From Burkholderiaceae bacterium (lineage in GTDB: Bacteria; Pseudomonadota; Gammaproteobacteria; Burkholderiales; Burkholderiaceae_F), in the NCBI GenBank assembly GCA_022843955.1, contig JALHMQ010000001.1:62001-126000 (forward strand): a DNA stretch of 64,000 bases. The letters are read 5' to 3'. The position numbers were made by a program, and so were the translations under genes. Shown here in pieces: positions 45,001 through 47,362 of this stretch. Under the pieces are notes generated by a model. The model had not been told where the DNA came from. It did no database searches and was given only the letters and a program-made list of their open reading frames with translations. Numbering within the stretch: the stretch's first letter is position 1; each line of letters begins with the position of its first letter.

Positions 45001-45075
45001 CTCGCCGTAGTTCAATGGATAGAACGGGGTCCTCCTAAGACTCAGATGCAGGTTCGATTCCTGCCGGCGGGACCA
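45001..45075 (+). tRNA. tRNA-Arg (anticodon CCT), CCA encoded
   Basis: A full cloverleaf can be drawn. The acceptor stem is CTCGCCG with CGGCGGG (one G-T pair), the D stem is GTTC with GAAC, the anticodon stem is GGGTC with GACTC around loop CTCCTAA, and the T stem is GCAGG with CCTGC. Discriminator A is followed by encoded CCA. The anticodon CCT reads AGG. TATACT at 44959-44964 may be its -10 box. Confidence 0.95.
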
Positions 45076-45370
45076 CGCGCTTGCCGTCAATGACGTTTGT
45101 GCGCCTGCTCGGCATTGTCGACTGGACTGCTGGGTCACGCGACGCTCGACTCGACCAAAGTGCAACTGCATGGCCCACATCTTGGGTGTGCGCCAAGTTG
45201 GGGCAAGTGTTGCTTACGGAGCGTGCACCCCAGCGAGAGCCTTGTGGCTGCGTGGTTTGCGCGTGTCGGCGGCGCGTTTATCCACAACCGCTGTGGATAA
45301 ACTCCGCGCCCTTGATTGGCATGGGCGTTGGTCCTCGCCCAGTATCGTCACCCTCTTCGGATTTCTGCTG
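45076..45370. other. Leader region between tRNA-Arg and parE
   Basis: About 295 bases with no gene. It contains an 11-base perfect inverted repeat made of two DnaA boxes, listed separately. The parE promoter is expected here. Confidence 0.5.
45276..45302. promoter_or_regulatory. Inverted pair of perfect DnaA boxes upstream of parE
   Basis: GTTTATCCACA-accgc-TGTGGATAAAC is a perfect inverted repeat of 11 bases with a five-base spacer. Each arm contains the consensus DnaA box TTATCCACA (45278-45286 on the plus strand, 45292-45300 on the minus strand). It lies 70 bases before the parE start. It could bind DnaA, or form an RNA hairpin in the parE leader. Confidence 0.65.
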
Positions 45371-47362
45371 ATGGCTGCTACCCCTCGTTACCGTTCGCCC
45401 CGCGCGGCCTCCGACTATGGCGAAGGGTCGATTCGTGTGCTGAAGGGACTTGAGCCGGTCAAGCAGCGGCCCGGCATGTACACGCGCACCGATTCACCGT
45501 TGCACGTCGTGCAAGAAGTGATCGACAACGCCAGCGACGAGATCCTTGCCGGGTTCGGTACGCGCGTCGATGTGACGCTGCATGCCGATGGCAGCGTCAG
45601 CGTCGAGGACGACGGACGCGGCATTCCAGTCGGGCTGCATCCGCAAGAGCAGGCGCCTGTGGTGGAAATCGTCTTCACGCGATTGCATGCCGGCGGGAAG
45701 TTCGACAAGCGCTCCGGCGGCGCCTATTCCTTCTCCGGCGGTCTGCACGGGGTGGGCGTGTCCGTGACCAATGCGCTTGCGGCGCGACTCGATGTCACGG
45801 TCTGGCGCGACGGCAAGAAGAGCACGATCGGATTCGCCGATGGTGACGTGCGCGAGCCGCTCGTCACCAAGAGCGCGAAGGGCGAAGACAGGACCGGCGG
45901 CACGCGGGTCCAGGTCTGGCCTGATCCGAAGTACTTCGACAGCCCGGTCGTGCCGGTCGATGAACTCGAGCGGCTGCTGCGCTCCAAGGCCGTGCTGCTG
46001 CCGGGCACCGAGGTCACGCTGCTGGTGGAGAAGACCGGCCGCTCGATGCGCTGGCGCTACGACGGCGGCCTGCAGCAATACCTGCTCGCCGCCCTCGGAG
46101 TCGATCCGCTGCTGCCGCCGTTCGAGGCGGAAGGCTATGCAATGGCCGATGACGAGACCTATGCCGAGGGCGAGGGCGCCGGCTGGGTCCTGGTCTGGAC
46201 CGAAGAGGGCCCCCTGGTGCGCGAGTCCTACGTCAACCTGATCCCGACACCGGCGGGCGGCACCCACGAGGCGGGCCTGCGCGAAGGCATGTTCAATGCG
46301 GTGCGCGCATTCATCGACGCCCACAGCCTGCTGCCCAAGGGCGTGAAGCTGCTGCCGGAAGATGTTTTTGCGCGGGCCAGCTTCGTGCTGACTGCGAAGG
46401 TGCTCGATCCGCAGTTCCAGGGTCAGATCAAGGAACGACTGAACAGCCGCGACGCGTTGCGCCTGGTGGCGTCGTTCGTGCGGCCGCAACTGGAGATCTG
46501 GCTGAGCCAGCATCCGGAGTACGGCCGCAAGCTCGCTGATCTCGTGATCCGGCAGGCGCAGGCGCGGGCACGGGCGTCGCAGAAGGTCGAAAAGAAGAAA
46601 GGGTCCGCGGTCGCCGTTCTGCCGGGCAAGCTCACTGACTGCGAAAGCACCGATCTGGCGCGCAACGAGATCTTCCTGGTGGAAGGTGACTCAGCCGGTG
46701 GTTCGGCCAAAATGGGCCGCGACAAGGAATTCCAGGCGATCCTCCCGCTGCGCGGCAAGGTGCTCAACACATGGGAAGTAGAGCGTGACCGCTTGTTCGC
46801 CAATGCCGAGGTGCACGACATCGCCGTCGCTATCGGGGTCGATCCTCACAGCGCGACTGACAGCCCCGACTTGTCCGGGCTGCGCTACGGCAAGGTCTGC
46901 ATCCTGGCCGACGCCGATGTTGACGGTTCGCACATCCAGGTCCTGCTGCTCACGCTGTTCTTCCGTCACTTCCCGCGCCTGCTCGACGCCGGCCACGTGC
47001 ACGTGGCGCGGCCGCCCCTGTTCCGGGTCGACGTGCCGGCGGCTGGCAAGCGACCGGCGCGACGGATCTACTGCCTGGACGACGCCGAACTCGATGCAAC
47101 GCTCGAGAAGCTGGTGGATGAAGGCGTGCGGGAGGGCAGCTGGAGCATTGCCCGCTTCAAGGGACTGGGCGAGATGAGCGCCGAACAGTTGTGGGAGACC
47201 ACAATGAACCCTGACACCCGCCGCTTGCTGCCGATCACCCTGGGCGAACTGGCGCTCGACCAGACACGCGGCACGATGACCATGCTCATGGGGCGAGCCG
47301 AGGCGCACGCGCGGCGCGCCTGGCTCGAAGAGCACGGCAACGAGGTCGAGGCGGACATCTAG
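45371..47362 (+). CDS. parE: DNA topoisomerase IV subunit B
   Basis: 663 residues. The GHKL ATPase has VVQEVIDNASDEI, VEDDGRGIPVG and SGGLHGVGVSVTNAL. The TOPRIM domain has LVEGDSAGGSAKMGRDKEFQ and CILADADVDGSHIQVLLL, and the C-terminus has RFKGLGEMSAEQLWETTMNP. Length and the HxEGDSAG context fit ParE rather than GyrB, which is longer in proteobacteria (about 800). It decatenates daughter chromosomes with ParC. No parC follows here. The start is the ATG after GATTTCTGCTG; a weak ribosome site. Confidence 0.95.
   Translation: MAATPRYRSPRAASDYGEGSIRVLKGLEPVKQRPGMYTRTDSPLHVVQEVIDNASDEILAGFGTRVDVTLHADGSVSVEDDGRGIPVGLHPQEQAPVVEIVFTRLHAGGKFDKRSGGAYSFSGGLHGVGVSVTNALAARLDVTVWRDGKKSTIGFADGDVREPLVTKSAKGEDRTGGTRVQVWPDPKYFDSPVVPVDELERLLRSKAVLLPGTEVTLLVEKTGRSMRWRYDGGLQQYLLAALGVDPLLPPFEAEGYAMADDETYAEGEGAGWVLVWTEEGPLVRESYVNLIPTPAGGTHEAGLREGMFNAVRAFIDAHSLLPKGVKLLPEDVFARASFVLTAKVLDPQFQGQIKERLNSRDALRLVASFVRPQLEIWLSQHPEYGRKLADLVIRQAQARARASQKVEKKKGSAVAVLPGKLTDCESTDLARNEIFLVEGDSAGGSAKMGRDKEFQAILPLRGKVLNTWEVERDRLFANAEVHDIAVAIGVDPHSATDSPDLSGLRYGKVCILADADVDGSHIQVLLLTLFFRHFPRLLDAGHVHVARPPLFRVDVPAAGKRPARRIYCLDDAELDATLEKLVDEGVREGSWSIARFKGLGEMSAEQLWETTMNPDTRRLLPITLGELALDQTRGTMTMLMGRAEAHARRAWLEEHGNEVEADI

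Follow-up and report, generated by a model that had tools for sequence, protein, structure and literature searches.

The leader of parE, the gene for DNA topoisomerase IV subunit B, carries in the analysed window (a 64,000-nucleotide stretch of a Burkholderiaceae bacterium genome) a perfect inverted repeat formed by two facing DnaA boxes. DnaA-reactivating sequences (DARS) were worked out in E. coli, and we interpret the repeat, with moderate confidence, as a two-box DARS-like site whose role would be the reactivation of DnaA and not mainly that of a gene switch. DnaA itself is very probably the protein that binds the element. This prediction is strongly supported because the geometry is that of DARS, a third box found at related sites varies as a DnaA box does, and the DNA-reading residues are conserved in the DnaA of this bacterium. 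The observations behind the proposed role are the boxes and their fixed 5-base spacing, conservation among relatives, the same geometry of boxes I and II in E. coli, and a full core between xseA and exbB in the same genome.

The inverted repeat (45276..45302) is composed of two 11-base arms, GTTTATCCACA (45276-45286) and TGTGGATAAAC (45292-45302), and the 5-base spacer ACCGC (45287..45291), whose length is fixed and whose letters are free among relatives. The perfect box TTATCCACA at 45278..45286 on the plus strand is faced by a second TTATCCACA at 45292..45300 on the minus strand, exactly as the initial annotation had described. One would correspond to DARS box I and the other to box II; the symmetry of the site leaves undecided which is which. 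The pair is located in non-coding DNA, as DARS cores are, in the gap between tRNA-Arg (CCT; 45001..45075, plus strand) and parE (45371..47362, plus strand; named from sequence). An in-frame ATG is also present at 45170, but the match of ParE to its relatives starts near 45374 and the most likely start is the ATG at 45371. The repeat ends 68 bases ahead of this inferred start, close to the 70 bases given in the initial annotation.

The expected place of box III, 3 bases further on (45304..45312, minus strand), differs from a DnaA box at 7/7 scored bases, and the mirror place (45266-45274) at 5/7. Because no box III follows box II in the same direction after a 3-base gap, on either side, the window site is termed DARS-like and not a DARS. 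A tandem double DnaA box (same direction, 2-3 bp apart) is not present at the window site either, with the 3-bp gap scored on both sides.

These two are the only perfect DnaA boxes in the 64,000-nt window, and none of 100 dinucleotide shuffles of the window contained two. The complete genome (5.54 Mb, 63 contigs) has eight, and the pair in the parE leader is its only facing pair of perfect boxes at gaps of 0-30 bases. Two of the eight belong to the dnaA-rpmH region, which is presumed to be oriC and is on a different contig from the window. The window site, which does not stand beside dnaA, is not of the oriC type (a box cluster next to that gene). A single perfect box was also noticed about 80 bases before an ORF named murJ-like from its sequence (L134:1501-1509, G000:C3). 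Pure titration, in which two high-affinity boxes soak up DnaA, would account for the consensus form of both boxes and for the small number in the genome, with two here and two beside dnaA. However, two boxes are few for the purpose, and titration neither needs nor predicts the fixed 5-base facing geometry; the titration site offered by the initial annotation is possible but improbable.

Two perfect facing boxes separated by any gap of 0-30 bases were found in 20 of 67 genomes of the family. Of the 20 family loci fetched, 14 sit upstream of parE; the gap is exactly 5 in 14/14, and the spacer letters vary. Leaders of parE were also taken regardless of the motif. A ParE match was obtained in 63 family genomes; the leaders of G007, G012, and G035, in which the match begins only within the coding sequence (residues 45, 310, and 229, respectively), were left out, as was, for the same reason, one of two G028 fragments. 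In the resulting 60 leaders, the facing pair with a 5-base spacer (N5 pair) occurred with 0-1 mismatch in 18, which span 9 genera. At these sites the arms are conserved and the 5-bp spacing is fixed, while the sequence of the spacer drifts. The other 42 leaders were without any N5 pair at fewer than five mismatches. Absence from close relatives, named in the initial annotation as a refuting condition, did not apply: many relatives keep the repeat, although these 42 do not. Because of its absence from 42/60 leaders, the parE copy is dispensable in many lineages, and this absence counts against a DARS-like role. A separate search covered named relatives, all or nearly all of them Burkholderiales as judged by titles. 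Of 80 named loci, L084 (no upstream DNA) and L021 (a contig of a family genome) were removed. In the remaining 78, the N5 pair was found in 26 at up to 3 mismatches, among them members of Burkholderia, Paraburkholderia, Pandoraea, Pigmentiphaga, and Bordetella.

The tRNA-Arg(CCT) gene at 45001-45075 points towards parE in the window and away from it in the other 13 of the 14 parE loci with the pair; it seems to be inverted in the window genome. A coupling of the element to the tRNA was considered and dropped, since this orientation is not conserved.

The same element occurs at other genes. When position 3 of the box was allowed to be any base except C (relaxed pattern), the window genome had a second place of match, between xseA and exbB. 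Exact matches to the relaxed pattern were present in 105 of 300 genomes of the order, mostly one in each. The reversed control gave none in all 300: such pairs are not common at random, and the second refuting condition of the initial annotation did not apply either. With one mismatch allowed, 41 of 67 family genomes carried the relaxed pattern, and the reversed control was found in one. Gene contexts were read for 65 sites outside the family, drawn among the matches listed in the 300-genome scan; neighbours were identified by tblastn against the window genome's own proteins, with gene names assigned from sequence. Among these sites, 29 were beside xseA, 5 upstream of parE, 4 in the hemE-priA gap, and 27 elsewhere.

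XseA was found in 94 genomes of the order, and 70 leaders were read whether or not they held the motif (30 loci plus 40 of the other 64). The N5 facing pair was present in 49/70 at up to 2 mismatches and in 50/70 at up to 3. Every other facing gap of 0-4 and 6-16 bases was seen in at most one leader, and gap 17 in 31; the latter (5+9+3) reflects a third box, 3 bases past the second and in the same direction. This box III was recognised at no more than 2/7 mismatches in 48 of the 50 xseA pairs (chance level 2.7%), and the better third box was on the xseA side in 50/50. Its position 5 is unconstrained and its position 3 is mixed, matching the DnaA consensus TTWTNCACA as cited in PMC4585315. A weak fourth tandem box was seen 2 bases after box III, at up to 2 mismatches in 17/50 leaders (about 0.7 expected). 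The xseA/exbB site of the window genome (C18:51402-51436) has the full three-box core, with one mismatch in box III; it is the only three-box match of this genome, with up to 3 mismatches allowed.

The hemE-priA gap of the window genome (L135:1501-1521, G000:C4) contains TTATCCACA and TTGTCCACA in tandem with a 3-base gap and no facing box. Judged by this arrangement, it is a putative partial DARS-like core upstream of priA, with II/III-like boxes and no box I. In genus g2 (L169, L171, L172, L173), N5 palindromes, some of them inside longer inverted repeats, were observed in gaps between convergent genes of small genomes. Of 30 dnaA loci, 25 had at least 200 bases of upstream DNA, and none of these 25 showed a facing TTnTnCACA pair (within 30 bases) in it; the idea of a spacing shared with oriC was rejected on this ground.

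The third box differs in occurrence between contexts. In 67 loci (the 65 order sites and two from the one-mismatch scan of the family), it was present in 31/31 xseA, 4/4 priA, 2/5 parE, and 16/27 other sites, against a background of 2.3%. At the family parE sites, box III was absent on both sides in 18/18, the best candidate having at least 3/7 mismatches. The parE loci L194-L196 of f18 are likewise of the two-box form. Box III at up to 2 mismatches was found at 23 of the 26 named parE sites. The family thus has its complete core at xseA/exbB and carries at parE the facing pair in perfect form. The missing box III at the window site and at all 18 family parE sites counts against a DARS-like role there.

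The strongest alternative to a DARS-like role is that DnaA controls parE. DnaA would then repress or activate parE in step with replication from an operator whose geometry was inherited from an ancestral DARS. In favour of such an operator, a two-box form with near-perfect arms persists ahead of parE in 9 genera, two boxes also stand at L194-L196 of f18, and DnaA is a known transcription regulator according to PMC11317965. However, the distance between the start of the site and parE ranges between 28 and 289 bases across loci, a crude scan of 45060-45420 found no sigma-70-like promoter, and the same element stands at xseA/exbB, hemE-priA, and other genes. We therefore regard a parE operator as rather unlikely, though the most serious competitor. 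The initial annotation had proposed that DnaA couples replication to decatenation. DnaA as the predicted binder is retained from that interpretation, but the coupling as its main idea is not, given the variable distance to parE and the different genes at which the element is found in each lineage. A still less probable variant is a minimal two-box DARS, at which a head-to-head DnaA dimer suffices; since the site lies in a topoisomerase IV leader, DnaA reactivation, parE expression, and decatenation would be tied together at one site.

It is highly improbable that the element is not a DnaA site at all, being recognised by another dimeric DNA-binding protein or folding as a hairpin in the leader RNA of parE. 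In favour of this are the clean palindrome and the RNA fold of 45262-45380, which has a z-score of -2.33, with 5/200 shuffles as good. Against this, box III and the changes tolerated at positions 3 and 5 conform to the DnaA consensus, and the geometry in E. coli DARS is identical. At the 50 xseA sites, pairing between the arms does not exceed that of shuffled arms (392/450 versus a mean of 393), and no terminator-like site was found near parE. The hairpin, also raised in the initial annotation, is therefore disfavoured, and an RNA hairpin or terminator was rejected for the lack of compensatory arm changes at these xseA sites and of a terminator-like site near parE. An unrecognised dimeric regulator of a parE/xseA/priA set was also considered and was abandoned when the third box, and then the E. 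coli DARS, proved to fit.

On the preferred reading, DnaA reactivation at a DARS-like site, two ADP-DnaA molecules would bind the facing boxes and their AAA+ domains would meet head-to-head. ADP would then leave, and the empty DnaA, once released, would load ATP and be available for another round of initiation at oriC. Binding of DnaA in this host, the head-to-head contact, and nucleotide exchange are predicted steps. We infer that box III is dispensable when both boxes are perfect; reactivation at the parE site may be weaker or differently timed than at a full core. The bacterium's own DnaA keeps R285, L290, and D269, as well as R399, R407, K415, H434, T435, and T436, which we take to be DNA-reading residues. 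Of the residues used at DARS (L290, D269, R227), the first two are kept and R227 is replaced by H; a T stands at F46. These two replacements count against a DARS-like role. A further point against it is that E. coli DnaA favours tandem boxes 2-3 bp apart in vivo, as described in PMC11317965; the window site has none.

The three-box pattern at up to 2 mismatches was detected in 220 of 274 genomes of the class (reversed control, 2/274) and in 110 of 200 genomes of the phylum (control, 1). By row count, the latter divide into 41/51 within the class and 69/149 outside it. G659, G779, G790, and G810, all of one family, each yielded two sites and no more, one resembling DARS1 in sequence and the other DARS2, and are a built-in positive control. 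Multiple three-box cores were observed in G073 (7) and G661 (9) of the phylum set and in G386 (6) and G398 (6) of the class set. The breadth of DARS-like sequences is not new: the review PMC10380432 already describes them as conserved in many proteobacteria, whereas the DARS2 core is confined to E. coli-related gamma-proteobacteria according to an earlier paper (PMC4245941). A literature search, mostly without subscription papers, turned up no description of a site of this kind at parE, xseA/exbB, or priA. Owing to the fixed geometry, a pattern search can locate DARS-like sites throughout the class, which opens the DnaA recharging cycle to testing in Burkholderiales and other groups. Having boxes I and II only, the parE-leader copy offers a natural way to ask whether the head-to-head pair is sufficient.

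Clusters of DnaA boxes near genes, as in the window, are also known from E. coli datA, which is linked to a tRNA transcript (PMC10950094), and from the double boxes of nrdA, polA, and purH. The double boxes are arranged in tandem with 2-3 bp between them (PMC11317965), whereas the window pair is facing with 5 bp. The closest counterparts are DARS1 and DARS2, which we read directly from MG1655 as TTATCCACT-N5-TGTGGATAA-N3-TGTGTATTA and TTATTCACC-N5-TGTGGATAG-N3-TGTGAAGAA, respectively. Box starts are 14 and 12 apart in both, so that box I faces II across N5 and III follows II in tandem after N3, which is the layout of the three-box sites at xseA. The box II-III pairs of DARS1 and DARS2 in an E. 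coli ChIP-seq study (PMC11317965) are identical to this reading. The spacing of boxes I-III is described as identical at both loci, with box I opposite, the head-to-head pair as essential, and box III as stimulatory (PMC5742627, PMC10380432, PMC8682772); PMC4245941 describes the three boxes as necessary for exchange. The window site shares with DARS1 (bioD-uvrB) and DARS2 (upstream of mutH) the facing boxes I/II with a 5-base gap, the intergenic non-coding location, and boxes of the TTWTNCACA type. It differs in having no box III and in its neighbours, tRNA-Arg and parE. The xseA/exbB element of the window genome and of 50/70 order leaders has the same N5 facing pair and, unlike the window site, box III at a 3-base gap. 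Both boxes of the window site are perfect consensus, in contrast to box I of DARS1 and boxes I and II of DARS2.
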